64,000 nt of DNA from Rosettibacter firmus (GCF_036860695.1 NZ_JAYKGJ010000002.1:1-64000); one strand, 5' to 3'. Shown: positions 39,247 to 56,113, counted from the stretch's first letter. The notes: generated by a model not told the origin, from the sequence alone. Numbers and translations are program-made.

Positions 39247-41556
39247 ATGGAACAACTATCAAGTAATGAACAAATTGATTCAGCAATAATGGTAGAATAT
39301 AAAAATCCAAAGTTATCACCTGAACAACGAGCTAAAGATTTAATTAAGAGAATGACATTAGAAGAAAAAATTGCCCAGATGTTATGTATATGGGAAGATA
39401 AAAAAACTATTTTATTTGATGAGAATGGGAATTTGAATTATGAAAAAATGCGTGAACATCTAAAAAATGGAATTGGTCAGATTGCAAGACTTAGTGATTC
39501 GAATGGAGGATTGACTCCTGTTGAGATGATTGAGATGGCAAATAAAATTCAAAAATTTTTTATAGAAGAAACTCGTCTTGGTATTCCTGTAATTTTTCAC
39601 GAAGAATGTTTACATGGACTTGCAGCAAAAGATGCAACAAGTTATCCAGTCCCAATTGGATTAGCTTCAACATTTAATGTAGAGTTAGTTGAAAAAATTT
39701 TTTCTGCTATTGCAGAGGATGCAAGAACACGTGGTGTTCATCAAGCACTTACACCAGTTGTCGATGTAGCAAGAGATCCAAGATGGGGACGTGTCGAAGA
39801 AACATTTGGCGAAGATCCTTATCTTACTGCTCAAATGGGTATTGCTGCTGTTAAAGGGTTACAGGGAAATGGAGAACTCAATAATGGAAATAAAGTTATT
39901 GCCACATTAAAACACTTTGCTGCTCATGGTCAACCAGAATCAGGAACAAATTGTGCCCCTGCAAATTTTTCTGAGAGATTGTTAAGAGATGTTTTCTTGT
40001 TCCCATTCAAAGAAGTAATTGAAAAAGCCAATGCTATTAGTGTAATGGCTTCTTATAACGAAATTGATGGAGTCCCTTCACATGCTAATAAATGGCTTTT
40101 GAGAAAAGTTCTTAGAGATGAATGGAATTTTAAAGGTTATGTAGTTTCTGATTATTATGCCATAACTGAATTAAATTATAGAGATGTTACAGTTAGTCAT
40201 GCTGTAGCTAAGGATAAATTAGAAGCAGCAAAATTAGCAATCGAAGCTGGAGTTAACATTGAATTCCCTAATCCTGATTGTTATTTATACATTTCTGACC
40301 TTATAAAAAGTGGATTAATTAAAGAATCTGATATTGATGAACTAATTGAACCAATGCTTAGATACAAATTTCAATTAGGACTATTCGATAATCCATACAT
40401 AAATACAACAAATGAACAAATAGAAGAGAAATTAATTAGTGATAGAGAATTAGCACTACAGGCTGCAAGAGAAACAATAATTCTACTAAAAAATGAAAAT
40501 AATATTTTACCATTAAAAAATTTCAAAAGAATTGCAGTAATAGGACCAAATGCAGACAGAGTTCTACTTGGAGGATATCATGGTACTCCAAGATTTTATA
40601 CATCGGTTTATCAAGGAATAAAAGAAAAAGCAGGAAATGATATTGAAGTATTTTATAGCGAAGGATGTAAGATTACAGTTGGTGGTTCATGGAATGAAGA
40701 TGAAGTAATACTTCCTGATCCTGAAGAAAATAAATTATTAATAAAAGAAGCTGTTGAAGTAGCAAAAAAATCTGAAGTAATAATTCTTGCATTGGGAGGA
40801 AATGAACAAACTTCTCGAGAAGCCTGGAATAAAAATCACCTTGGAGATAGGCCAAATATAGATTTAATTGGTCAACAAAATCTATTAACAGAAGAATTAC
40901 TCAAATTAGGTAAACCCATTGTTGTACTTTTATTTAATGGTAGACCAAATTCAATTAATTTTATAAAAGAAAATGTTCCAGCAATTCTTGAATGCTGGTA
41001 CTTAGGACAGGAAACAGGAAAAGCTGTTGCAGATGTTTTATTTGGATATTACAACCCGAGCGGGAAATTACCAATTTCAATTCCAAGATCAGCAGGTCAC
41101 ATTCCTTGTTATTATAACTATAAGCCATCTGCAAGAAGAGGTTATTTGTTTGATGATGTCACTCCACTTTTCCCTTTCGGTTTTGGGCTGAGTTATACTA
41201 ATTTTATATTCAGTGATCTAAAACTATCAAAAGATAAAATTAAATTAGGTGAATCGACACAAATTTCTGTAACTGTAAAAAATAATGGTAACTTAGCTGG
41301 CGAAGAAGTAGTGCAGCTATATATAAGAGATTTGTATAGTTCAGTTACAAGACCAGTAAAAGAATTAAAAGGGTTTAAGAAAATTGCTCTTCAACCACAA
41401 GAAACAAAAACAGTAATATTTGAATTAAGCACAGATATGTTAGCATTTACAAATATAGACATGCAGTATTGTACTGAACCTGGAGATTTTGAAATTATGG
41501 TTGGAAATTCATCGAGAGATGAAGATTTATTAAAAATAATATTAACCGTAGAATAA
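39247..41556 (+). CDS. Glycoside hydrolase family 3, probable beta-xylosidase/beta-glucosidase
   Basis: A 769-residue enzyme. The GH3 (beta/alpha)8 domain (about 25-390) has the nucleophile Asp302 in YVVSDYYAI, KHFAAHGQPE and MASYNEIDGVPSHANKWLL, then the (alpha/beta)6 domain (LKNENNILPLKNFKRIAVIGPNAD) and a C-terminal fibronectin-III-like domain (GNLAGEEVVQLYIRD). No signal peptide is visible, so it probably acts in the cytoplasm on imported oligosaccharides. The sequence style and the xylanase neighbours favour beta-xylosidase, but the substrate is not proven. An alternative start lies at Met15. Confidence 0.9.
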   Translation: MEQLSSNEQIDSAIMVEYKNPKLSPEQRAKDLIKRMTLEEKIAQMLCIWEDKKTILFDENGNLNYEKMREHLKNGIGQIARLSDSNGGLTPVEMIEMANKIQKFFIEETRLGIPVIFHEECLHGLAAKDATSYPVPIGLASTFNVELVEKIFSAIAEDARTRGVHQALTPVVDVARDPRWGRVEETFGEDPYLTAQMGIAAVKGLQGNGELNNGNKVIATLKHFAAHGQPESGTNCAPANFSERLLRDVFLFPFKEVIEKANAISVMASYNEIDGVPSHANKWLLRKVLRDEWNFKGYVVSDYYAITELNYRDVTVSHAVAKDKLEAAKLAIEAGVNIEFPNPDCYLYISDLIKSGLIKESDIDELIEPMLRYKFQLGLFDNPYINTTNEQIEEKLISDRELALQAARETIILLKNENNILPLKNFKRIAVIGPNADRVLLGGYHGTPRFYTSVYQGIKEKAGNDIEVFYSEGCKITVGGSWNEDEVILPDPEENKLLIKEAVEVAKKSEVIILALGGNEQTSREAWNKNHLGDRPNIDLIGQQNLLTEELLKLGKPIVVLLFNGRPNSINFIKENVPAILECWYLGQETGKAVADVLFGYYNPSGKLPISIPRSAGHIPCYYNYKPSARRGYLFDDVTPLFPFGFGLSYTNFIFSDLKLSKDKIKLGESTQISVTVKNNGNLAGEEVVQLYIRDLYSSVTRPVKELKGFKKIALQPQETKTVIFELSTDMLAFTNIDMQYCTEPGDFEIMVGNSSRDEDLLKIILTVE

Positions 41557-41902: not shown

Positions 41903-44900
41903 ATGCTTCGTAAGATTACATTATTATTTGTTTTATTAACTTCATTCTTGTTATTTAATCAGGTCTATTATGCTCAAGGACGTGGAACTTTAAGAGGGAT
42001 TGTATTCGATAAAGCAACAAAAGAAGTACTCCCGGGTGCAAATGTATTAATAAAAGGAACAAGTATTGGTACAGCATGTGACCTCGATGGTAAATACGTA
42101 ATTTATAATGTACCTGCAGGGACTCAAACTGTTGTTGTTTCATATATTGGTTATAAAACTGTCACTATGGAATTAAATATACTACCTGGAAAAACCTTAG
42201 AACAGAATTTTGGTCTCGAGATGACAGCAGTTGAAGGTGAAGAAATTGTAATTACAGCTCAGGCACAGGGACAGTTACAGGCAATTAATCAACAATTAAC
42301 ATCAGATAAAATTGCAAATATTGTTTCGGAAGCAAGAATTCAAGAACTACCGGATTTTAATGCAGCTTCTGCATTGAGCCGTTTACCTGGAATATCTACT
42401 ACTAAAAGTTCTGGTGAAGATAATAAAGTTGTAATTCGTGGTCTTTCTCCGAAATATAATGCAATTGAAGTTGAGGGTGTTAAACTTTCTGCTACGGGAA
42501 GTTCTTCAATTGGTCTTACATCTGATCCTTATGTTCAAACTGGTGGATTAAATAATGATAGAAGTGTTGATCTTAGCATGATATCTCCATATATGATTAG
42601 AATGATTGCTGTTTATAAATCATTAACTCCTGATATGAATGCAAATTCAATTGGTGGTACTGTTAATATGGAATTAAGAGAAGCTCCTTCTGGTTTTCAC
42701 TGGAATGTTTTATGGCAACAGGGTTATACAGCAAAAAGTAAATATTATGGTAATTATAGAGGAGTTGCATCTGCAAGTAATAGATTTTTTAATGATAAGT
42801 TAGGCGTATATGCTTTAATTAATACAGAAGCATACGATAGAAATTCAGATAATATGGATGCAAACTATGGTATAGCAGCTGAACAGGCACAAATTGATCC
42901 TTTAACTGGGTATCGTCCTGTAAAAGTTAATTCTGTTACTTTTAATAGACACTTAGAAACAAGAAGACGTCTTGGAGCAAATTTGATTCTTGATTATAAT
43001 ATTCCAAATGGCTCGCTAAAGTTTGTTAATATGTTTGCAAGATTGAATTCTGATTATACAGAGCATCGTCAAACTATTAATTATGATAATGGTAGAATGG
43101 AATGGCAATTGAGATCTGGAATAAATGTAATTGATCAACAGTTGAATTCTATAAAATTAGATTATGATCTTGATTTTATTACTGTAGATTTATCTGCTAG
43201 CTATACAGCTGCTACTAACAATCTTAAGAACTCTCCAGTATTCTCTTTTAATCAAACAGATGCTTTGCAGGCTGGTGTGCTTAGAGATAATAAAAGACCA
43301 GAAGAACTAACTTACTTACTTACTAAATATAAAGGAGCTGATGAAGTAGTTCTAAGAAGTGGTAATTTATTTAGCAATTTATATAAAGAAAAGAAATATT
43401 CTTTGAAAGGTGATTTTGAATTACCATTTAACTTTTCAAGTATTCTAAATGGCTCATTTAAGTTTGGTGGATATTTCTACGATCAGAAAAATAGCACAGA
43501 TCAGGAATCCCCTTATTTAGCTTTTAATGGCAATGCAAATTCTACTGATAATGATATACAAACTAATTTGATGAGAACTATTAAAAATGAATTTGGTATT
43601 TCTACAAATACAAGAGGAGAATTGGTAGGTAGTTCTTTTATTGATACTAATAATAAATTATATGATCCATTCCTTGATAATAGATATGGACCTATTTTCT
43701 ATGCAGCTAATACTGGGATTCTTAATGATATTCTTTATTATATTATGAGTAAACCAGAATTTGATGCATCTAATAAAGATGTAAGTACTGGAGCTCAAGG
43801 TGGCTGGTATAATGGACCTTATCAAAAGTTAACTAACGATTATAATTATAGAGAAAAATATTATGCCTCTTATGTAATGAGTAAAATAAACTTTTTGGAT
43901 TTTATGATTATAGGTGGTGTCCGATATGAAAAAGTTAAAACAGAATATTTTGCCTATAATGCAAGAGATATGAGAAATGCTCAAGCTCAAATTATGTATG
44001 ATACAACTGCTCATGGTTCTAATGAATTTTTACTTCCTATGGGACAAATTAAATATACACCACTAAACTGGCTTGATGTACGTTATGCTTATACTCAAAC
44101 AATTTCTCGACCTGATTACCATTTAATTAGTCCAAAGTTTACTATTACTCAAAATAATGAGATTTATACGGGTAACCCCGATTTAAAACCAGCTAAAGCT
44201 TATAATCATGATTTGAATTTTACATTTCATAGTAATTCTATTGGACTTTTAACAATTGGTGGATTTTATAAAACAATAGAAAATTTTGTTTTTAATGCTA
44301 CTTATCAACTTGATGCAGCTGAAGGTGCTGGAATTGATTCTTTAAGACGTTACCAAATTATTCGTAATGGACAATTGGTTGTAACGCCAATAGTTAATCC
44401 AACAACTAAAAAATCCAATGCAACGGTATATCGACCATTAAATAATCCATATAAAGCTTATGTAAAAGGTCTTGAATTTGATTTTCAACATCGATTCTGG
44501 TATCTGCCTTATCCATTTAATGGATTACTGATTGGAATCAACTACTCAAGAATATTTTCAGAAACAAGGTATCCATTCTATGATGTTAAGGTAAAAATAG
44601 TTGGACGTGATAGAATACCTGTACTTATCGATAGCTCATCTGTTGGACGTTTAATAGACCAACCTAATCATGTTTTGAATTCTTATATTGGATTTGATTA
44701 CAAAGATTTTGCAGTTCGTTTTTCGTTCGTATTTAATGATGAAGTTGCTACAGTTAATGGTGGTAGATATCCAGAAAATGATTCATATGCAGATGATTAT
44801 TTTAGAATTGATTTTTCTGCGCGACAAAAATTACCATTCTTTAATTCAGAATTATACATCGATTTTAGTAATCTTAATAGTGCAAATACACAATCTATCC

Positions 44901-44977
44901 AGAAATCAACAGGAGGATTTAGAAACATACAGAATTATGGTCTTGTAGCAAATTTAGGAATAAGATTAAGGTATTGA
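41903..44977 (+). CDS. TonB-dependent receptor with carboxypeptidase-regulatory-like domain (SusC-like)
   Basis: A 1024-residue outer-membrane receptor. The signal peptide (about 1-24, ending YYA) is followed by a CarboxypepD_reg-like domain (about 28-115; GIVFDKATKEVLPGANVLIKG), the plug (about 130-255; FNAASALSRLPGIS, VVIRGLSPKYNAIEVEGV) and a beta-barrel ending in aromatic Tyr (LGIRLRY). It should import xylan oligosaccharides using TonB-ExbBD energy. GGAGG lies seven bases before the ATG. No SusD gene follows it. Confidence 0.92.
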   Translation: MLRKITLLFVLLTSFLLFNQVYYAQGRGTLRGIVFDKATKEVLPGANVLIKGTSIGTACDLDGKYVIYNVPAGTQTVVVSYIGYKTVTMELNILPGKTLEQNFGLEMTAVEGEEIVITAQAQGQLQAINQQLTSDKIANIVSEARIQELPDFNAASALSRLPGISTTKSSGEDNKVVIRGLSPKYNAIEVEGVKLSATGSSSIGLTSDPYVQTGGLNNDRSVDLSMISPYMIRMIAVYKSLTPDMNANSIGGTVNMELREAPSGFHWNVLWQQGYTAKSKYYGNYRGVASASNRFFNDKLGVYALINTEAYDRNSDNMDANYGIAAEQAQIDPLTGYRPVKVNSVTFNRHLETRRRLGANLILDYNIPNGSLKFVNMFARLNSDYTEHRQTINYDNGRMEWQLRSGINVIDQQLNSIKLDYDLDFITVDLSASYTAATNNLKNSPVFSFNQTDALQAGVLRDNKRPEELTYLLTKYKGADEVVLRSGNLFSNLYKEKKYSLKGDFELPFNFSSILNGSFKFGGYFYDQKNSTDQESPYLAFNGNANSTDNDIQTNLMRTIKNEFGISTNTRGELVGSSFIDTNNKLYDPFLDNRYGPIFYAANTGILNDILYYIMSKPEFDASNKDVSTGAQGGWYNGPYQKLTNDYNYREKYYASYVMSKINFLDFMIIGGVRYEKVKTEYFAYNARDMRNAQAQIMYDTTAHGSNEFLLPMGQIKYTPLNWLDVRYAYTQTISRPDYHLISPKFTITQNNEIYTGNPDLKPAKAYNHDLNFTFHSNSIGLLTIGGFYKTIENFVFNATYQLDAAEGAGIDSLRRYQIIRNGQLVVTPIVNPTTKKSNATVYRPLNNPYKAYVKGLEFDFQHRFWYLPYPFNGLLIGINYSRIFSETRYPFYDVKVKIVGRDRIPVLIDSSSVGRLIDQPNHVLNSYIGFDYKDFAVRFSFVFNDEVATVNGGRYPENDSYADDYFRIDFSARQKLPFFNSELYIDFSNLNSANTQSIQKSTGGFRNIQNYGLVANLGIRLRY

Positions 44978-45015: not shown

Positions 45016-46827
45016 ATGAAAAAATTTATTTTATTAATAATAGCATTTACTCTATTGAGCAATTTCTTGTTTGCTCAAAAAGATACTGTAGTAGTTAGTG
45101 GTTTTTACGAAACTGGCAAATACGGTACACTAAATGATGCTATAGAAGCTGCTATAGCTAATGGTACCATAAATAATACAGTATTCAAACTCAAGCCATA
45201 TGAAGTGTATGTTCTAAGTAGAAGTATATATTTAGATCATGGTCAAAATTTAGAGCTATATGCTCCTAAACCCGGAAAAACACAGGAATCAGCGCCACCA
45301 CAAATTGTGTGGACCGAAGAAGCAATAACAAGAACCTACATTATTCAAAGCTATGGCGATATAAAAGCATCGAATATATGGTTTCGTTATGCAGATTTTT
45401 TAGGTAGCAAAGTTATGACTTCAATTACTTTTGAAAATCAAACACCAGAAAATGACCCTGAAAGAGGTGAATTTGATGGATGTCTTTTTGATTATGCAGG
45501 AATAGGTGCAGAATCGGCTGGTGCAATTTGTGTTAAAGCAGATCATTTTGTAGGTAAGTTTACTAATTGTTACTGGAGAAATAATTCAGATAATCATTTT
45601 AGATATTATGGTCGTGCAGTTTCATTCCCATATCAAAGTTCAGGCTGGCATTACGATACTTTATTTTTTGAAAATTGCACATTTACTAACTTAAGTAGAA
45701 TTGTAATGCAAGAAGGAAATGAATACAGTGATAATATATTTATTAATCATTGTACACTTTTAAATTCAATTGAATGGGTATTTCAATCTGCTGGCTGGAT
45801 AAGAAATGCTGTAATTACAAATTCTCTCTTTATCAATCCATATATGTATGGACATAGAGCTTATGATGTATGCCCAAGTGGAATGACTTATAATGATTAT
45901 CTTGCAGGTAAATGTAATTCCCCAGGTGGTGGACTTATTAATGGTATAACTCCAGTGGATTCATTTGGATTCCAGGTGGATTTTACAGACTTCGATAGAA
46001 AAATTTACATTGGTTACATCGATTATGCTTATCAGGATTGGATGTTAGATTGGTATAAGAATAGTGATTGGAGTAAAGAGCGTATTAGAAATAGAGAACA
46101 GATGTTACTTTTTAATCCTTCACCCATGCTTGGCGATGATGAAATTGCCTTTATGGATTCAGTAGATGCCAATGGAAATAAAGTATTTAAAACAATTAAT
46201 GTAGATTGGCCAACTATTTATCATAAAGATCCACAATTTATTGTTCCTGCTACAAATTTAGAAGCTGCTAAACTATTTATTATGTACAAATGGTCAACAA
46301 ATGCAGATATTGATTGGTCATATGAACCCGAAGCTGGATTCAAACAAGTATGGCCATTACCAGAAAATTTAGCTTATACAGATCCAGAATTATTGACTGC
46401 AGGTATGGGAGGATATCCATTAGGTGATTTAAATTGGTTCCCGGACAAATATGAACAATGGAAGACTTCTCAACGCGAAAAAGAATGGCAAACAATTAAT
46501 AATTGGTTGACCTATGGTTCGCCTGAACCAAGCGTTGTAAAAGAATTACCAGGTCCTCTACCTTTAGAATATTCATTAAAACAAAATTATCCTAATCCAT
46601 TTAATCCAACTACTAATATCGAATACTCAATTCCTAAATCTGGTTATGTATCCTTGAAAGTATTTAACTTATTAGGTCAACAAGTAGCTACAATTTTTGA
46701 AGGAAATCAAAACGCTGGCAACTATATTGCAACATTCGATGCATCTGGATTAGCTAGTGGGGTTTATTTATACAGATTAGAATCTAATAATGTCTCTATT
46801 ACAAAGAAATTAATATTAATGAAATAA
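45016..46827 (+). CDS. T9SS-secreted beta-helix-like surface protein in the SusD position
   Basis: A 603-residue protein. The signal peptide (1-20, ending LFA) is followed by short repeating strands such as NIWFRYADF, FEGCLFDYAG-like FDGCLFDY, FTNCYWRNNS, FENCTFTN, INHCTLLN and ITNSLFINP, typical of right-handed beta-helix proteins (about 30-290). A middle region rich in Trp, Asp and Pro follows, then a T9SS sorting domain (about 515-603; QNYPNPFNPTT, ending KKLILMK). It starts 38 bases after the receptor. It may bind or cut polysaccharide at the cell surface; no catalytic motif is recognised. Confidence 0.75.
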   Translation: MKKFILLIIAFTLLSNFLFAQKDTVVVSGFYETGKYGTLNDAIEAAIANGTINNTVFKLKPYEVYVLSRSIYLDHGQNLELYAPKPGKTQESAPPQIVWTEEAITRTYIIQSYGDIKASNIWFRYADFLGSKVMTSITFENQTPENDPERGEFDGCLFDYAGIGAESAGAICVKADHFVGKFTNCYWRNNSDNHFRYYGRAVSFPYQSSGWHYDTLFFENCTFTNLSRIVMQEGNEYSDNIFINHCTLLNSIEWVFQSAGWIRNAVITNSLFINPYMYGHRAYDVCPSGMTYNDYLAGKCNSPGGGLINGITPVDSFGFQVDFTDFDRKIYIGYIDYAYQDWMLDWYKNSDWSKERIRNREQMLLFNPSPMLGDDEIAFMDSVDANGNKVFKTINVDWPTIYHKDPQFIVPATNLEAAKLFIMYKWSTNADIDWSYEPEAGFKQVWPLPENLAYTDPELLTAGMGGYPLGDLNWFPDKYEQWKTSQREKEWQTINNWLTYGSPEPSVVKELPGPLPLEYSLKQNYPNPFNPTTNIEYSIPKSGYVSLKVFNLLGQQVATIFEGNQNAGNYIATFDASGLASGVYLYRLESNNVSITKKLILMK

Positions 46828-46943: not shown

Positions 46944-49900
46944 ATGTTAAAAAAACTAAAACTTATTTTATTTACAATCCTCTGGATATCTTCAGGACTA
47001 TTGGCTCAGGAGGTGGTTCTTTCCGATGAGTTTGATAACGGTGATAGTAAGTGGAATACCGGATGGATTGATAATGCAACTACTTCCGTTACTGTCTCTA
47101 TAGATAACACTGGTAAGCTCTCTGGTGCTAATTCTTATAAGCTTACCATTACAAAAGGTGGCGTTGAAATGTGGAGAGTTCAAAGAGTAGCGGATTTACC
47201 ACTTGTTGCCGGTTACAGATATACATTATCATTTATGGCAGTTGCAAGTAAGGATGCAAAAATTAATGCTCTTTTTGAAATCAAAGGTTCTCCATATACA
47301 AAATATCTCAATGATACTGCGAATGTTACTACTACTCCTCAAACTTTTACTTATGAAATGACAGCAACTATTAATGTACCTGATAATCAGGTTAAATTAC
47401 ATTTTGGTAGTGCTTTTAATGATAATACTACTATCTGGATTGATAAAATTATTGTAACTCGCATGCCAGATCCGTCATTTGTAACTTTATGGGGTTCAAC
47501 ACCACGAGGTAAAGGCTGGCCAATTCTTAATAGACAGGATACTCCTCCTGGTGATGCAGGTATGGGTGCTGATGGTCCTCCTCCAAGCTGGGCTACTATC
47601 CGTGGTGGTTTTGGTAGAACCGTTGAAGCTACAACAGAAAAAGCAATTGTTGTGACAGGTAGATTTGAATATGTAGGTGAAGGTCCAGGTGCAAGTTATG
47701 TACCATTACGTTATGCATTGACTTACTGGACAGACGAAGGTACACTCAATTATCAATATACAGATACTGCAACATGGACAGGGGCTGGTGTTCACTATGG
47801 TTATGAATTTACACCTCGTTCGGGTGCAACAGATATGGCAAACGGTGCTGGAGGAGCTGGTACTGTATGGACTATAAATGGTGGCGCAGGTTGGAATAGT
47901 ACCTGGTCTAATAATGGTAGACCAATTGCAGCAGTTGAACAAGAACCTGCTTTAGCAGAAATAGCTGCCGGCATGTATGATTTTGCAATTTCTGTTCAGC
48001 CTCTTCCTGATGGTACAAACGAAATTCGCTGGTTCATGTATCATGTAGATAAAAAATACTGGTTTGGTGGAACTGTAATTGATACAGCTCAGGTATCTAC
48101 AAGATTTAATGGGATTTGCTTTGGTGTAGGAGATGGTATTACTACTCAAATGAAAGCTTTCAAACTCTATGGAGTAAGAGTTGAACTTGGTAACCCAATT
48201 ACTGTCCCAGAAGCACCATGGCAACCATATTATGTAGAAAATTGGGGTAAATTTGTAAGATTTAGCCCAACTGCAGAATTCGTACCTGGAGATGTTGTTG
48301 GTAATGCTGGTGTTAAAGGGAAAGATGGTGGACAAATTCCAAGTAATCAGGGTTGGACTGTTATAAGAGGTGGATTTGTTAAGCCACATACTGCTACATT
48401 GTCTAAAGCACTTATTGTTAAAGGAAAAATTAGATTTGAAGGTGCTGGTCCAAGCACATGGAGTGGTTTAAGAATGGGACTTTTCCAGCACGATAGTGCA
48501 GGTGTGCTACAAAACGCAAATACACCGGATGCTGCATGGTCAGGAAAAGAAAATTATGCTAAAGGGTATTTATTAATTCCTCATAGTGATGCAAATGAAT
48601 TGCCAGGATGGGCTGCTGGTGGTGCTGGAATGCTCGGTGTAGTTCGAAATGGTAACTGGATTAGTACTTATGGTAGTAATTTAGCTTTAGGTGTGGCTTA
48701 TCAAAAACCAACTGGAGCTATATTTAATGAAGGTACTTATAATTTTGCAATTTCTGTTCAACCAAAATCCGATGGAACAAAAGAACTAAGATTTTATATA
48801 GTTAAAGAAGATAATAGTTACTGGTGGGGTGGTACATTTATAGATACTACCTGGATACCTCCAACATTTAATGGAATATGTTTTGGACTAAATGGTGGTA
48901 ATGGTGCAGAAAACAATCCATTAAAAGGTATGTATCTGGAAGATGTGATGGTTGATATGGGAGCTCCAATCGTTGTCCCAGAAGCACCATGGCAACCTTA
49001 TTATGTTGAAAATTGGGGTAAATTTGTGAGATTCAGTTCTACAGCAGAGTTTGTTCCTGGTGATGTGATTGGTAATGCAGGAATAAAAGCAAAAGAAGGC
49101 AGTACAGGTATAACTACTGGTGGTGTATGGTCAACTATACGTGGTGGATTCCTTGAACCAATTACTGCAACATTAACAAAAGCAGTTAAGATTACTGGTA
49201 AAATAAGATTTGAAGGTGGCGATCCAAATACTTGGAGTGCTTTAAGGTATGGAATTTTCTATCATGATAATCCAGGAACATTACAAAATAAAGGCACACC
49301 TGATGCCACTTGGAATGGACAAGAAAATTTAGCAAGGGGTTATTTATTAACACCTCAAAGTGATGCTAATGAATTACCAAGCTGGGCATCTGGAGGAGCT
49401 GGACATGTTGGGGTTGTAAGAAATGGTAACTGGATAAGTACCTTTGGACCAAATTTATCCTTAGGTCCTGTATATCAAAAACCATCAGGTGCAAGATTTA
49501 GTAGAGGTACTTATAATTTTGCTATTTCTGTTCAACCTAAATCTGATGGAACAAAAGAATTAAGATTCTATATGATAAAAGAAGATAATAGCTACTGGTG
49601 GGGTGGAATTTTAATTGATACAACAACCATAGCTCCTACATTCAATGGTGTATGTTTCTCAATTAATACAAGTAACCCTGTAACAGGAATGTATCTTGAA
49701 GATGTTCAGGTTGATCTTGGAGATCCAATTGTTGTTCCAGAAGCACCATGGCAGGCTTACTATGTCGAAAATTGGGGATTCATTGGTGCAAAAACTGGTG
49801 GCTGGAAATTAACTCCAGGTGACGTAATTGGTAATACTACTATTTCAGGTGATAGAAAATCTTTTGGCTGGGCTGCAATTAGAGGTGCATTTATCGATCC

Positions 49901-50789
49901 AGTTGAATTAACAACCAAGAAAGCTTTGATTGTTACTGGCAAAATGGAATTAGTAGGTGGAGGTTTTGAAGGTTGGACATCGCTTAGAATTGGATTAACT
50001 TATAATCCTAACCCTGGTAAATTAAATCAAACTGCGAATGGATATGAATGGAGTGGGTCAGAATCAGCTAATACAGGATATCTGTTTATTCCACCAAGTG
50101 GTAAAAACGATTTAGCATACTGGGGTGTAAACAAACAACCCGGTTCTGTTGGGGCAGTAGTTAATAGTACTTGGCTTGAAACTTTAAGTGATGAAAATTA
50201 TGCAATTTCTGATATTCGTCAGAAACCAAAGAATGCTGTAGCTACTGCTGGAATGTATGATTTTGCATTCTCTATTCAACCAAAAGATGATGGTAAAACT
50301 GAGGTTCGTTTCTATATCCATAAAGAAGATGGTACTTATAATTTTGGTGGAATTGTTCTGGATAGTAAAAACATCGTTAAGAAAATTAATAGCATTAACT
50401 TTGCATTGAGCAATCTTGCAAATGCTACTAAACTTAATTTGTATGATGTAAATGTTGATATGGGTTCGCCAATTATAATTCCTGATTCAATTGTTTCTGT
50501 AAGAACTATAGCTGCTGAAGTACCTACAGATTTTATACTTAATCAAAATTATCCGAACCCATTCAACCCATCTACAACAATTGAATTTGGTATTCCACAA
50601 AATGAAAATGTGAAGTTGACTGTATATGATGTTTTAGGTAGAGTAGTTGCAGAATTAGTAAATGATAACCTGAATGCAGGATATTATAGAGTTAACTTTA
50701 ATGCTTCTAATCTTGCATCAGGTATTTACTTCTATACTCTTAAAGCCGGAGATTTTGTAAGTACTAAAAAATTGATACTTATGAAATAA
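46944..50789 (+). CDS. T9SS-secreted modular protein with four tandem ~250-aa repeats
   Basis: A 1281-residue protein. Signal peptide 1-21 (LLA). Residues about 23-178 resemble a carbohydrate-binding module of the CBM4/9/22 type (SDEFDNGDSKWNTGW; TIWIDKIIVTRM). Four homologous modules start at about residues 179, 421, 678 and 931. Each has W-x-x-IRG(G/A)F, FA(I/F)S(V/I)QP-x-x-DG and RFY-x-x-K-ED. Modules 2-4 open with VPEAPWQ-x-YYVENWG. A T9SS sorting domain (about 1194-1281; QNYPNPFNPST) ends it. I do not recognise the module family. In a xylan locus it is probably a cell-surface glycan-binding protein. Confidence 0.8.
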   Translation: MLKKLKLILFTILWISSGLLAQEVVLSDEFDNGDSKWNTGWIDNATTSVTVSIDNTGKLSGANSYKLTITKGGVEMWRVQRVADLPLVAGYRYTLSFMAVASKDAKINALFEIKGSPYTKYLNDTANVTTTPQTFTYEMTATINVPDNQVKLHFGSAFNDNTTIWIDKIIVTRMPDPSFVTLWGSTPRGKGWPILNRQDTPPGDAGMGADGPPPSWATIRGGFGRTVEATTEKAIVVTGRFEYVGEGPGASYVPLRYALTYWTDEGTLNYQYTDTATWTGAGVHYGYEFTPRSGATDMANGAGGAGTVWTINGGAGWNSTWSNNGRPIAAVEQEPALAEIAAGMYDFAISVQPLPDGTNEIRWFMYHVDKKYWFGGTVIDTAQVSTRFNGICFGVGDGITTQMKAFKLYGVRVELGNPITVPEAPWQPYYVENWGKFVRFSPTAEFVPGDVVGNAGVKGKDGGQIPSNQGWTVIRGGFVKPHTATLSKALIVKGKIRFEGAGPSTWSGLRMGLFQHDSAGVLQNANTPDAAWSGKENYAKGYLLIPHSDANELPGWAAGGAGMLGVVRNGNWISTYGSNLALGVAYQKPTGAIFNEGTYNFAISVQPKSDGTKELRFYIVKEDNSYWWGGTFIDTTWIPPTFNGICFGLNGGNGAENNPLKGMYLEDVMVDMGAPIVVPEAPWQPYYVENWGKFVRFSSTAEFVPGDVIGNAGIKAKEGSTGITTGGVWSTIRGGFLEPITATLTKAVKITGKIRFEGGDPNTWSALRYGIFYHDNPGTLQNKGTPDATWNGQENLARGYLLTPQSDANELPSWASGGAGHVGVVRNGNWISTFGPNLSLGPVYQKPSGARFSRGTYNFAISVQPKSDGTKELRFYMIKEDNSYWWGGILIDTTTIAPTFNGVCFSINTSNPVTGMYLEDVQVDLGDPIVVPEAPWQAYYVENWGFIGAKTGGWKLTPGDVIGNTTISGDRKSFGWAAIRGAFIDPVELTTKKALIVTGKMELVGGGFEGWTSLRIGLTYNPNPGKLNQTANGYEWSGSESANTGYLFIPPSGKNDLAYWGVNKQPGSVGAVVNSTWLETLSDENYAISDIRQKPKNAVATAGMYDFAFSIQPKDDGKTEVRFYIHKEDGTYNFGGIVLDSKNIVKKINSINFALSNLANATKLNLYDVNVDMGSPIIIPDSIVSVRTIAAEVPTDFILNQNYPNPFNPSTTIEFGIPQNENVKLTVYDVLGRVVAELVNDNLNAGYYRVNFNASNLASGIYFYTLKAGDFVSTKKLILMK

Positions 50790-50812: not shown

Positions 50813-50846
50813 AGCCTGCTCTGAAGAAGAGCAGGCTTTTATTTTA
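50813..50846 (+). terminator. Intrinsic terminator after the modular protein
   Basis: AGCCTGCTCT (50813-50822) and AGAGCAGGCT (50828-50837) form a perfect 10-bp stem with a GAAGA loop, followed by TTTTATTTT. It ends the receptor/beta-helix/modular transcript. The core CCTGCTCT-N5-AGAGCAGG is repeated after the GH10 gene. Confidence 0.88.
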
Positions 50847-51083: not shown

Positions 51084-53453
51084 ATGAATAAAAAATTTAA
51101 AACTTTATATGTAAGTTTATTACTATTACTTATGCCATCCCTATCTTGGGGACAGTTGGTAACTAATGGTAGTTTTGAAGATACACCTTTAGGACCAATA
51201 ACCGGAAATATTAAAGGTTGGGTTCTCTCTGTAGGAACAAGTGTACCAACTCCTCCTAATTTTGAGATTGTTGATAATCCGGTTCAAGATGGTAATCGTG
51301 CTTTTAAAGTTGTTATAAATAGTCTGGGTTCAAATGACTGGGATATTCAACTTGTTGCTGATAGTATACCAGTAAAGCAAGGCGAAACATATGTATATAC
51401 TATCTGGGCAAAAGCAGAAAAATCTGGTGCACAGGCAAACTTTACTGTCGGTAATTACTCTTATAATGAATATGGAGCTATTCGTCCTGCATCATTAACT
51501 ACAGAGTGGAAACAGTTTACTATGGAGTTTACAATTACTGATAATCAACAGTATATTAGAGCTCCAATTCATTTTAATAGAAGTGGAAATGTTGGTAATA
51601 CTATTTATATTGATAATCTATCTATTGTAAATAAAAAAGATATTCCTTCACCTAAGAAACCAATTGTTCTGGAAGCAGAGGATGGAGTACTTGGAAGCGA
51701 TTATGAAATTTTACAGGATGGAGATATTACTTATGTAACTCCGAAAACAAATTTCATAAATGCTAATCATCCAGGAAGTAAAAGTAAAGTTATTACTTTC
51801 GAAGTTACATTTGCTGATACAGGCACATATAATTTATTTGCAAAAATAAGAGTAGGTCCAAATCAGTTTAACGACGATAGTTTCTTTTATGGAAATGGAT
51901 TTGGTATCAAAGATACTTTGAATGATGATGATTGGATTGCAGTAAATCAATTGCAGGTTGCAGGTTTTAATGAACCGAATAATATTGTTCTTGGTCCTGG
52001 TGCTTTAGGTAATGGAGTCTGGAAATGGGTTAATTTATCGCAAAACAATTATTATGAAAATGCCGTTACTTTTAAAGTTGAAGGGGATACACTCAAAAAA
52101 ATATTTCAGATAGCTTCACGTGAAGATGGATTGGATATAGATAAAATTGCATTTGGGAAAGCAAATCTTTATTTCACTGTCAAGAACTTAGAGGAAAAAA
52201 CAGAAGGCTTGGATAAATTGCCAGGTACAATCTGGTCAGGTCCACCATTAGCATCAAAACAACCGAAGTATGTAGGTAATATTTATAGCCGTCTTCAAAG
52301 AGAAAATTTTGAGTCATACTGGAATCAGGTTATACCAGAGAATGCAGGTAAATGGGGTAGTGTTGAGGGGACAAGAGATGTCATGAATTGGGCAGAACTG
52401 GATTCTGCATATAATCTTGCAAAAAGAAATGGTTTTTCATTTAACTTTCACGTACTTATCTGGGGAGCACAGCAACCTTCTTGGATTAACTCTTTACAAC
52501 CTTCAGAACAACTTGAAGAAATAAGAGAATGGTTTCAGGAAGTTGCAAATAGATATAATGATATAGACTTTTTGCAGGTAGTAAATGAACCTTTACCTGG
52601 TCATAATCCACCTGATGGACAAAGCGGTAGAGCTAATTATAAAGAAGCTTTAGGAGGTAATGGAGCAACAGGATGGGATTGGGTGATAAATGCATTTAAG
52701 ATGGCTCGAGAAATCTTTCCTCAAAAAACTAAGTTGATGATTAATGATTATAACATTATAAATAGCTCAACTAATACATCTCAATATCTTCGTTTGATAA
52801 GATTGCTTCAAGCACAAAATCTAATAGATGCTATTGGAATACAGGGACACGCGTTTAGCACATATACTGCTACAGTTACTACGATGAAAAGAAATCTTGA
52901 TTCACTGGGAGCTACAGGTTTACCAGTTTATATTACAGAATTAGATATAGATGGACCAACTGATGACATACAACTAAGAGAATATCAAAGAGTCTTTCCT
53001 GCACTTTATGAACATCCAGCTGTAAGAGGAATTACTTTATGGGGATGGAGACCTGGTCTATGGAGAAATGATCAGAAAGCTTATCTTGTTGATGCAAATG
53101 GTTATGAAAGACCTGCATTAACATGGCTTAGGAATTACCTTGATACTGTAAAAGTAATTGTATCAACAAGAGAGATTGCTAATTTACCAAATGAATTTCG
53201 TCTTGAACAGAATTATCCAAATCCGTTTAATCCAACTACAAAAATTACTTATGTATTACCAAGTAGAACAACTGTATCGCTTAAAGTATATGATGTACTT
53301 GGAAGACATATCAAAACTTTAGTTGATGATTTACAAAATCCAGGTTCTTATACTGTTACTTTTGATGGTTCAGGACTTTCGAGTGGAGTTTACTTCTATC
53401 GACTGGAAGCTGGTGGATATTCGAAAACAAAACAAATGATTTTGATGAAGTAG
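51084..53453 (+). CDS. Endo-1,4-beta-xylanase, GH10, with carbohydrate-binding modules and T9SS domain
   Basis: A 789-residue secreted enzyme. Signal peptide 1-23 (SWG). Residues about 25-183 form a CBM4/9/22-like module (VTNGSFEDTPLG; YIDNLSIVNK). Residues about 194-365 form a second probable binding module (VLEAEDGVLGSDYEI). The GH10 domain (about 380-690) has the acid/base Glu502 in QVVNEPLPG, the nucleophile Glu619 in YITELDID, and LIWGAQQPSW. A T9SS sorting domain (about 700-789; QNYPNPFNPTT) anchors it outside. It hydrolyses internal xylan bonds. The catalytic domain lacks the usual HTLVWHSQ motif exactly; it reads FHVLIWGAQQ. Confidence 0.93.
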   Translation: MNKKFKTLYVSLLLLLMPSLSWGQLVTNGSFEDTPLGPITGNIKGWVLSVGTSVPTPPNFEIVDNPVQDGNRAFKVVINSLGSNDWDIQLVADSIPVKQGETYVYTIWAKAEKSGAQANFTVGNYSYNEYGAIRPASLTTEWKQFTMEFTITDNQQYIRAPIHFNRSGNVGNTIYIDNLSIVNKKDIPSPKKPIVLEAEDGVLGSDYEILQDGDITYVTPKTNFINANHPGSKSKVITFEVTFADTGTYNLFAKIRVGPNQFNDDSFFYGNGFGIKDTLNDDDWIAVNQLQVAGFNEPNNIVLGPGALGNGVWKWVNLSQNNYYENAVTFKVEGDTLKKIFQIASREDGLDIDKIAFGKANLYFTVKNLEEKTEGLDKLPGTIWSGPPLASKQPKYVGNIYSRLQRENFESYWNQVIPENAGKWGSVEGTRDVMNWAELDSAYNLAKRNGFSFNFHVLIWGAQQPSWINSLQPSEQLEEIREWFQEVANRYNDIDFLQVVNEPLPGHNPPDGQSGRANYKEALGGNGATGWDWVINAFKMAREIFPQKTKLMINDYNIINSSTNTSQYLRLIRLLQAQNLIDAIGIQGHAFSTYTATVTTMKRNLDSLGATGLPVYITELDIDGPTDDIQLREYQRVFPALYEHPAVRGITLWGWRPGLWRNDQKAYLVDANGYERPALTWLRNYLDTVKVIVSTREIANLPNEFRLEQNYPNPFNPTTKITYVLPSRTTVSLKVYDVLGRHIKTLVDDLQNPGSYTVTFDGSGLSSGVYFYRLEAGGYSKTKQMILMK

Positions 53454-53599: not shown

Positions 53600-54406
53600 A
53601 TGATTAATAAAAAAATAATTTTTATCATCTTATTAGTGATATCTTATAATATAAATGCACAGGTTAATCTCTGGAATAATAAGAGTTGTGCAGTTGTATT
53701 AACTTATGATGATGCATTAAACACCCATCTCGATAATGTAATCCCTCTTCTGGATTCACTTGGCTTTAAAGCTACGTTTTATCTTTCTGGCTTTTTCCCG
53801 GGATTTAGTAATAGATTGAACGATTGGAGAAAAGCAGCAGCAAATGGTCATGAACTTGGAAATCATACTTTATTTCATCCATGCATTGGAAATATGGAAG
53901 GAAGAGAATGGGTAAAACCTGACTATGATTTAAGTAAATATTCTATTCAAAGAATAACTGACGAAATTTTAATGAATAATATTGTTCTGGAAGCAGTTGA
54001 TGGAAAAAAGAGAAGAACATTTGCTTATACATGCGGAGATACATTAGCAGGTGATTCTTCTTACGTTAAAATTATAAAAGAAAATTTTCCTGCAGCAAGA
54101 GGTGTAAATTATTTTCATCAAAAAATTAATGAAATAGATTTATTCAATATTGGTTGTTATGTTGTAAATGGCCAGAGTGCAGATGAGTTAATTGATTTAG
54201 TTAAATATGCTATGAATAATAATACATTATTGGTATTTCTATTTCATGGAGTAGGTGGAGAACACCCAATAAATATTTCTTTGGAAACACATAAAAAACT
54301 TCTTGAATTCTTAAAAGCTAATGAAAATAATATCTGGATAACAACATTTTTAGATGTTGCTGATTTTATAAGAAAGTACCGAACTAAATCTGAAACCTTC
54401 AAATAA
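53600..54406 (+). CDS. Polysaccharide deacetylase (CE4 family), probable acetylxylan esterase
   Basis: A 268-residue protein. Signal peptide 1-20 (INA). The NodB domain shows motif 1 VLTYDDA (Asp37 catalytic base, Asp38 metal ligand) and motif 2 HELGNHTLFHP (His89 and His93 metal ligands). A later FLFHGVGGEHP supplies the conserved His region near the C-terminus. CE4 enzymes remove acetyl groups from xylan, chitin or peptidoglycan. Between GH10 and GH30 xylanases, acetylxylan is the likely substrate. It has no T9SS sorting domain, unlike its neighbours, so it may stay in the periplasm. Confidence 0.85.
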   Translation: MINKKIIFIILLVISYNINAQVNLWNNKSCAVVLTYDDALNTHLDNVIPLLDSLGFKATFYLSGFFPGFSNRLNDWRKAAANGHELGNHTLFHPCIGNMEGREWVKPDYDLSKYSIQRITDEILMNNIVLEAVDGKKRRTFAYTCGDTLAGDSSYVKIIKENFPAARGVNYFHQKINEIDLFNIGCYVVNGQSADELIDLVKYAMNNNTLLVFLFHGVGGEHPINISLETHKKLLEFLKANENNIWITTFLDVADFIRKYRTKSETFK

Positions 54407-54574
54407 TCATAATGAACCTCATGCATTTCATTTCTTACTAATGATTGATGGTTGATATCCTCGTGTGAGTTCTAATTAGATAATTTGATTTATGAGGTAA
54501 CTAATAAATGGTTGTTAAGCTTACACTATAATTTTATCTCTAATAATAATGAATTAATAAATAATGGGGAAATA

Positions 54575-56113
54575 ATGATTAATTACTCGAAAAGAAAAAA
54601 GAATTTTTTAATTCTGCTGCTAATTAATTTAGTAGTATTTGTAAATATTATTTTAGCTCAGGCTACGAATAAAACAATAATTTATCTCGATAGTACAGAC
54701 CAGGTCATTCAAGGATTTGGTGCTGCAAATATTTTACCCTGGCGACCCGATATGAAACCAGATGAAATTATAAAAGCTTTTGGGACAGATGATGGTCAGC
54801 TTGGTTTTACAATTTTGAGACTTAGATTGCCCAGTGATCCAAACGAATTTGCAAGAAACGTACAAACAGCAAAAGCTGCTCACTCAATGGGAGTAAAAAT
54901 TATTGCATCTCCATGGTCACCTCCTGCTTATATGAAATCCAATAAGAATATTGTTGGAGGTAGACTCCTCGATGAATATTATGATGACTATGCTCTTCAC
55001 TTAAAATCTTTTGTAGATTTCATGGCTTCTAATGGAGTACCTATTTATGCAGTTTCTGTACAGAATGAACCTGATATTAAGGTTAATTATGAATCATGCG
55101 ATTGGACTGCAGCAGAAATGGTTAAATTCATAAGAGAAAATGCACCAACTGTAGGTACCAGGATAATTGCACCTGAATCATATCAATTTATCAAAACAAT
55201 ATCTGATGCTATTCTTAATGACCCCATAGCTGTAAAAAATGTGGATATTATAGGTGGGCATATTTATGGTGGTGGTTTAGAACCATATCCTCTTGCCAAA
55301 AGTAAAGGTAAAGAATTGTGGATGACAGAACATCTTGAAACAGACACTACCTGGCAAAAAGTTTTAGAAACAGGTAAAGAAATTCACGACTGTATGATTG
55401 CTGGAATGAATGCTTATATCTGGTGGTATATTGTTAGATTTTATGGACCGATATTGGAAAATAGTCAGGTTTCTAAACGTGGATATATTATGTCTCAATT
55501 TTCACGATTTATTCGTCCAGGATTTGTAAGAGTTTATAATTCTAATGCTAAATATATAGATAATAGAAAAGGTATTGAGATTTATACAAGTGCGTATAAG
55601 AGTAATGATAAAATTATTATTGTTGTTGTAAATATGGGTATTTCAATTGAACAGACTTTTGTCTTAGACAGTAAAACAGCAAATAAATTTACTCCTTATA
55701 TAACAACAAAAACAAAAAATTGTGAACGGGGTAATGACATTAATGTTGTCAACAATAGTTTTACTTTTACAATTGAAGGAGAAAGTGTAACTACTTTTGT
55801 ATCGGATGGCATCTTTACAAGTGTTGAAGAAGATTTATTACCAGAAGAATTTAATCTTTCTCAGAATTATCCTAACCCCTTCAATCCTTCTACAATTATT
55901 AATTATCAATTACCAGAAAGAAATTTTGTTACAATAAAAGTTTATGATGTACTTGGCAAAGAAATAACAACTCTTGTAAATGAATTCAAAGAAGCAGGGA
56001 ATTATAAAATAGAATTTTCTGCCGATAAGTATAACCTTTCAAGCGGAATATATTTTTATACTTTAAAAGCAGGAACTAATTTTGCAGTTAAGAAGATGAT
56101 ATATGTAAAATAA
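54575..56113 (+). CDS. GH30 glucuronoxylanase-like enzyme with T9SS domain
   Basis: A 512-residue secreted enzyme. Signal peptide about 1-29 (IILA). The GH30 barrel (about 35-320) has the acid/base Glu165 in SVQNEPD and the nucleophile Glu252 in WMTEHLE. The stretch WWYIVRFYGPILE followed by SKRGYIMSQFSRFIRPGFVRV (key part SKRGY-FIRPG) resembles GH30 subfamily 8 glucuronoxylanases. A beta-sandwich follows (about 320-412). The C-terminus is a T9SS sorting domain (about 422-512; QNYPNPFNPST). The frame is open from 54485, but the ATG at 54575 has GGGGAA upstream and gives a proper signal peptide. Confidence 0.9.
   Translation: MINYSKRKKNFLILLLINLVVFVNIILAQATNKTIIYLDSTDQVIQGFGAANILPWRPDMKPDEIIKAFGTDDGQLGFTILRLRLPSDPNEFARNVQTAKAAHSMGVKIIASPWSPPAYMKSNKNIVGGRLLDEYYDDYALHLKSFVDFMASNGVPIYAVSVQNEPDIKVNYESCDWTAAEMVKFIRENAPTVGTRIIAPESYQFIKTISDAILNDPIAVKNVDIIGGHIYGGGLEPYPLAKSKGKELWMTEHLETDTTWQKVLETGKEIHDCMIAGMNAYIWWYIVRFYGPILENSQVSKRGYIMSQFSRFIRPGFVRVYNSNAKYIDNRKGIEIYTSAYKSNDKIIIVVVNMGISIEQTFVLDSKTANKFTPYITTKTKNCERGNDINVVNNSFTFTIEGESVTTFVSDGIFTSVEEDLLPEEFNLSQNYPNPFNPSTIINYQLPERNFVTIKVYDVLGKEITTLVNEFKEAGNYKIEFSADKYNLSSGIYFYTLKAGTNFAVKKMIYVK

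Follow-up and report, generated by a model that had tools for sequence, protein, structure and literature searches.

The locus and its genes

The window analyzed here is a stretch of 64,000 nucleotides of Rosettibacter firmus DNA (NZ_JAYKGJ010000002.1:1-64000). A single open reading frame on its plus strand, 46944-50789, encodes a protein of 1281 amino acids that we call the module protein. The hydrophobic N-terminus of this protein, MLKKLKLILFTILWISSGLLAQ (46944..47009, +), was judged by eye to be a signal peptide. It is followed by a CBM4_9-type domain (47010..47468, +, residues ~23-175; Pfam PF02018, E=6.3e-10), which in phmmer searches also matches PDB chains of the CBM4/CBM22 type, among them 1gui (E=2.4e-8). 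Four consecutive modules make up most of the remainder, at 47475..48224 (module 1, residues 178-427), 48225..48995 (module 2, residues 428-684), 48996..49754 (module 3, residues 685-937) and 49755..50498 (module 4, residues 938-1185), all on the plus strand. The C-terminus carries a type IX secretion system (T9SS) type A sorting domain (50550..50777, +, residues 1203-1278; PF18962, E=5.8e-12; TIGR04183, E=7.1e-13). Both this tail and the CBM4_9 domain had been overlooked in the sequence-only reading of the window that preceded our analysis. Given the type IX tail, the module protein is predicted to be exported, probably to the cell surface, and the R. firmus genome encodes the T9SS sortase PorU (977.8 bits). 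As with all our statements about this genome beyond the window, the PorU assignment rests on profile searches, which also found a single module gene. No tandem array was found in the module gene at the DNA level.

The module gene is the third of three genes on the same strand, in the order receptor, beta-helix protein, module protein, with intergenic gaps of 38 and 116 bp. The first gene (41903..44977, +) encodes a TonB-dependent receptor with CarbopepD_reg_2 and plug domains by Pfam and a match to TIGR01782 (E=9.6e-89). The SusC model TIGR04056 matches only its N-terminal 210 residues, far below the cut-off, and the receptor is not a full-length SusC. The second gene (45016..46827, +) encodes a 603-aa protein with a T9SS tail that AlphaFold models as a right-handed, PL6-like beta-helix. 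No terminator-like hairpins were found between the three genes, and a strong intrinsic terminator with a 10-bp stem and a T-rich tail (50813..50837, +) closes the unit.

Putative xylan degradation genes flank the unit on both sides. Upstream is a GH3 glycosidase, probably a beta-xylosidase by its Pfam match (39247..41556, +). Downstream are a GH10 xylanase with a CBM4_9 domain and a T9SS tail (51084..53453, +; PF00331, E=1.1e-60), a polysaccharide deacetylase that may be an acetylxylan esterase (53600..54406, +; PF01522) and a GH30 glucuronoarabinoxylanase-like enzyme with a T9SS tail (54485..56113, +). The last of these matches the XynC-type model NF052681 with E=3.9e-112, below that model's cut-off, and its true start is probably the ATG at 54575.

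A repeated module of lectin-like predicted fold

The sequence-only reading had described an unrecognised module of ~250 aa occurring four times. We find the same four copies, with overall identities of 36-72%. Modules 2 and 3 are the closest pair, as had been claimed, at 71-72% identity; module 1 shares 36-40% with modules 2, 3 and 4, and the pairing of modules 1 and 4 is far beyond chance (BLASTP E=2e-42). The motifs quoted earlier are present, with variants among the modules. W-x-x-IRGGF becomes IRGAF in module 4, FAISVQP-x-x-DGT becomes FAFSIQPKDDGK in module 4, RFY-x-x-KED becomes RWFMYHVD in module 1, and the YWWGG patch reads YWFGG in module 1 and YNFGG in module 4. In the module alignment, the YW(W/F)GG form of this patch is characteristic of non-last modules only.

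HMM searches agree that the sequence family is unrecognised. No Pfam or NCBIfam model, including the curated CBM profiles, matched any of the four window modules above its cut-off; the same was true of 21 homologous modules scanned singly, and a search of PDB sequences with the module profile returned nothing credible. Several CAZy CBM families are not represented in Pfam. Membership in the hyaluronan-linked BT4411/DUF4627 family (NF058548) was considered and rejected, at 18.6 bits against a cut-off of 220 bits. This model matched only module 4 (E=0.001), or one of 21 modules, and it also matches the N-terminal end of a GH10, so the proposed kinship was dropped.

An AlphaFold model of module 2, built from a 21-sequence alignment, is almost entirely beta (mean pLDDT 91.2, pTM 0.91). 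Against this model, Foldseek ranks legume lectins, ERGIC-53 and calreticulin highest (E of 2e-6 or weaker, TM ~0.4). VIA-align gave Z scores of 12.8 to 11 over 164-196 residues for thrombospondin C-terminal domains, legume lectins and L-type lectin domains, Bacillus subtilis 1oq1 and a GH16 enzyme. BT4411 is among the named families missing from these fold lists, an absence that does not amount to exclusion. In the predicted model, a two-sheet jelly-roll extends over most of the domain, as in the concanavalin A-like lectin/glucanase fold. The module is thus modelled as a concanavalin A/L-type-lectin sandwich, which is an old fold. The earlier suggestion of a new family holds for the sequence, which by our searches is new relative to the Pfam, NCBIfam and PDB libraries, but not for the predicted fold.

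Modules are present in 7 of the 296 genomes of a phylum-wide sample and in 12 of 79 genomes of the family. A scan of genome contigs with a 9-module alignment as query found 27 module loci, all metagenome-assembled, from Melioribacter, other Ignavibacteria, KSB1, Calditrichaceae, Balneolaceae, Rhodothermia and Neomarinimicrobiota. The approximately 30 relatives of the module protein fall in Ignavibacteriota, Calditrichota, KSB1, Balneolota, Rhodothermota and Fidelibacterota. Complete relatives have two to four tandem modules and a T9SS tail, with CBM4_9 in some, and the domain queries used detected no catalytic domain in them. In a Melioribacter roseus metagenome-assembled genome (L038:2890-6869), the module gene is split into two ORFs (986 and 408 aa) that overlap, which reflects a frameshift or an assembly error. 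A Calditrichaceae bin (L047:5841-12502) has two tandem module genes, with four and three modules.

A tree of 90 modules places 28 last-position modules, drawn from all lineages, on one side of a branch with SH-aLRT support of 99. Only three last-numbered modules (in L051, L046 and L038) lie outside this clade, and each of their ORFs is truncated at a contig edge or broken by a frameshift. By this tree, last-position modules form a separate clade of ancient origin, and the other modules have been duplicated recurrently within individual lineages. The window's modules 2 and 3 are sisters in a clade common to three Melioribacter-type genomes, L028 and M. roseus bin L038 have close modules 1 and 3 that point to a 1/3 duplication of their own, and independent 2/3 duplications are seen in L047, L050, L052 and L057. 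The tree therefore backs the earlier proposal of growth through internal duplication. The accompanying statement that modules 1 and 4 are diverged needs to be divided: it is apt for module 4, which belongs to the ancient last-position clade, but not for module 1, an ordinary member of the repeat-type clade along with modules 2 and 3. As worded, it conflates the ancient clade with the lineage-specific 2/3 duplication.

The receptor and its beta-helix partner

Apart from its T9SS tail, the 603-aa protein matched nothing in Pfam, NCBIfam or PDB sequences, and a generic Beta_helix match was seen in 5 of 25 homologues. Its AlphaFold model (pLDDT 87.9) is closest to PL6 lyases (best E 2e-4, TM 0.43). 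The profile of this protein is positive in 36 of the 296 phylum genomes, compared to 7 of 296 for the modules.

The arrangement seen in R. firmus is common among module loci. The receptor and beta-helix genes lie directly upstream in 17 of the 22 module genes that have more than 5.5 kb of upstream sequence, a count that rises to 18 of 22 if L039, where a small spurious ORF intervenes, is included. The exceptions are the second module gene in L047, the gene in L057, which lies behind two beta-helix genes, that in L040, where the order is reversed, and that in L059, which has neither partner. A terminator-like hairpin occurs within 200 bp after the module gene at 22 of 27 places by raw count. 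The stem of this hairpin is frequently ACAGCCTGTC...GACAGGCTGT, across phyla, and its inner stem, AGCCYG...CRGGCT, has only six sites in the R. firmus genome. This element could be a partial terminator that holds expression of the capture gene above that of the enzymes.

The pairing of receptor and beta-helix gene extends beyond module loci. An additional 22 regions were picked by the beta-helix profile alone, many with weak matches. The beta-helix gene was found directly behind a same-strand TonB receptor in 10 of 10 cases in one set and for 13 of 13 genes (12 regions) in another; with one more pair found from the receptor side, the total is 24 of 24 further homologues (loci L073-L096). This adjacency holds with or without modules downstream. 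Receptors in such pairs match with E values of 1e-215 or better, compared to ~1e-32 for unpaired receptors of the same regions, using a profile built from the paired receptors. In R. firmus, each of the six strongest TIGR01782-type receptors is followed by a beta-helix gene, which in one case matches weakly.

The SusD families PF07980 (SusD_RagB) and PF14322 (SusD-like_3) had no match in the R. firmus genome, and the Bacteroides control was positive. The defining arrangement of a SusC/SusD-type polysaccharide utilization locus (PUL), a SusD homologue beside the TonB receptor, was therefore not found. We found no report of a SusD-less TonB receptor/beta-helix pair in the open-access literature. 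The type IX-tailed beta-helix protein is a candidate SusD replacement.

The enzymes near these pairs differ from locus to locus. Neighbors of non-xylan beta-helix loci include GH125, GH47, GH9, GH26 and rhamnogalacturonan lyases, and GH10 is absent from the families listed for 34 neighbors of other beta-helix loci. Given this variety, receptor and beta-helix protein appear to make up a general unit for glycan import with an interchangeable third protein: tandem modules in many xylan loci and FG-GAP/Fn3-like proteins elsewhere. Four receptor/beta-helix loci (L077, L079, L088 and L092) have GH10 and no modules, so modules are dispensable for such loci. In L077:6283-9567, L078:11433-14591 and L079:11187-14390, the third gene encodes a T9SS protein that by eye is FG-GAP/ASPIC-like and Fn3-like; its interpretation as a diverged module protein was rejected on this basis. 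A 1046-aa protein at L058:12667-15804 joins a GH10 xylanase to a domain from the beta-helix family described here.

A proposed role in xylan capture

We consider it probable (roughly 0.6) that the module protein is a surface, type IX-secreted xylan capture protein in a SusD-less import operon. In the mechanism we propose, the receptor would be the pore and the beta-helix protein its fixed partner, occupying the genomic place of SusD; the module protein, as third operon gene product, would provide a multivalent xylan grip of the SGBP-B type. Several weak lectin-type sites would hold one xylan chain close to the receptor, surface GH10/GH30 enzymes would cut the held chain, and the receptor and its beta-helix partner would import the resulting oligosaccharides. 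We infer the binding of xylan by the modules and the identity of the binding face, and likewise the formation of a complex and the SusD-like role of the beta-helix protein. The likeness to SGBP-B is drawn from genomic position and make-up: at the sequence level, the module protein is non-catalytic, multimodular, export-tailed and adjacent to a TonB-dependent transporter (TBDT) in a glycan locus.

The carbohydrate-binding role suggested by the sequence-only reading agrees with the lectin-like predicted fold together with the xylanase context. On its own, a lectin-like fold is weak evidence for binding, since TtX122 domains of similar general fold have been assayed with neither clear activity nor clear carbohydrate binding (PMC10916295).

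The choice of xylan as ligand depends on the neighborhood. GH10 outnumbers every other catalytic family around modules (21 of 73 neighboring ORFs), in widely separated phyla, and among the 26 module genes whose flanks exceed 8 kb, 16 have GH10 or GH30 nearby. The other 10, including those of L028 and M. roseus bin L038, have no GH10 or GH30 within reach, so their ligand may differ or the enzymes may be located elsewhere. It is conceivable that the modules bind another plant or microbial glycan, such as mixed-linkage glucan, a pectin side chain or xyloglucan, and that the xylanases are chance neighbors or part of a multi-substrate locus; GH2/GalB-type and GH42/DUF5597-type enzymes are also found near module genes. 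We regard this as unlikely given the prevalence of GH10 and the coherent xylan set of the window, GH3-GH10-deacetylase-GH30. The cassette is present in M. roseus bin L038, and xylan hydrolysis has been reported for this species (PMC3534657).

Residue conservation bears on how the modules might work. With residues numbered as in module 2, W105 is invariant in every module, last and non-last. In non-last modules, R83, Y199, F51 and F220 are also invariant, W145, Y115, Y172 and N216 are nearly so, and E187 and W200 are conserved in 94% and 85%, respectively; in last modules, E187 drops to 61% and W200 is lost. This contrast in the conservation of E187 and W200 suggests a ligand site in the repeat-type modules and a different job for the last one. 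The relaxation of these two positions in a separate last-position clade is also what a spacer or dock would be expected to show, and the modules might then be chiefly a structural stalk or scaffold that stabilizes the receptor/beta-helix complex, with binding secondary or left to CBM4_9. We think this quite improbable, as CBM4_9 is missing from many relatives that retain modules, R83, W105 and Y199 are invariant in non-last modules, and repeated duplication suits multivalent binding. That the modules are themselves enzymes attacking the polymer (a concanavalin A-like lyase, esterase or hydrolase) is very improbable, even with a fold common to GH16 and alginate lyases and polar R83, E187, N216 and D207 conserved in non-last modules, because four tandem copies per protein would be an uncommon design for an enzyme, inspection by eye revealed no known catalytic motif and no catalytic family matched in Pfam or NCBIfam.

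The capture of xylan by the module protein may be one instance of a wider system. SusC/SusD is the textbook route of polysaccharide uptake in Bacteroidota-type bacteria. We see roughly even odds that the receptor subfamily and the beta-helix protein form an obligate import pair that replaces SusC/SusD in Ignavibacteriota, Balneolota, Rhodothermota and allied lineages, with the new module family as the capture protein of the xylan version. If so, several phyla would share an alternative solution to polysaccharide import, with a similar pore, a beta-helix protein instead of SusD and a tandem lectin-fold capture protein. It would also be found in M. roseus, which is known to grow on xylan, and annotators could locate glycan loci where SusD-based searches find none. 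Single modules are small enough for direct xylan-binding assays.

Known systems resemble parts of this arrangement. The L-type lectin/concanavalin A-like superfamily (legume lectins, ERGIC-53, the thrombospondin C-terminal domain, GH16 and 1oq1) shares the predicted fold over the whole module, but at ~5-15% identity sequence kinship is undetectable. Lectin-like beta-jelly-rolls of ~240 aa are also known from Teredinibacter turnerae, which degrades plant cell walls: its TtX122 domains (8q2a; PMC10916295) belong to secreted multi-domain proteins. The structural match to the module is weak (Foldseek rank 50, TM 0.36-0.39), and TtX122, unlike the module protein, occurs in redox proteins. SGBP-B/SusE-SusF-type proteins of Bacteroidetes PULs are, like the module protein, multimodular beta-sandwich, surface and non-catalytic proteins whose genes adjoin a TonB-dependent transporter and surface glycosidases. 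They differ in being lipid-anchored, compared to the type IX tail of the module protein, whose modules are concanavalin A-like and of no known family and whose operon is SusD-less. The Cytophaga hutchinsonii cellulose PUL, CHU_1276-CHU_1280, is also SusD-less, with a TBDT-like barrel and an endoglucanase. According to the portions of the published account used here (PMC12016534), its SGBP-B-like bimodular protein, CHU_1279, is essential in the cellulose locus, and variants with strongly reduced binding still supported growth. The same portions show that this PUL differs in acting on cellulose and in having a pair of CBM-like domains, of which the C-terminal one comes closest to CBM11 by fold, and they describe no beta-helix partner; we liken the two systems by make-up, with no homology implied.
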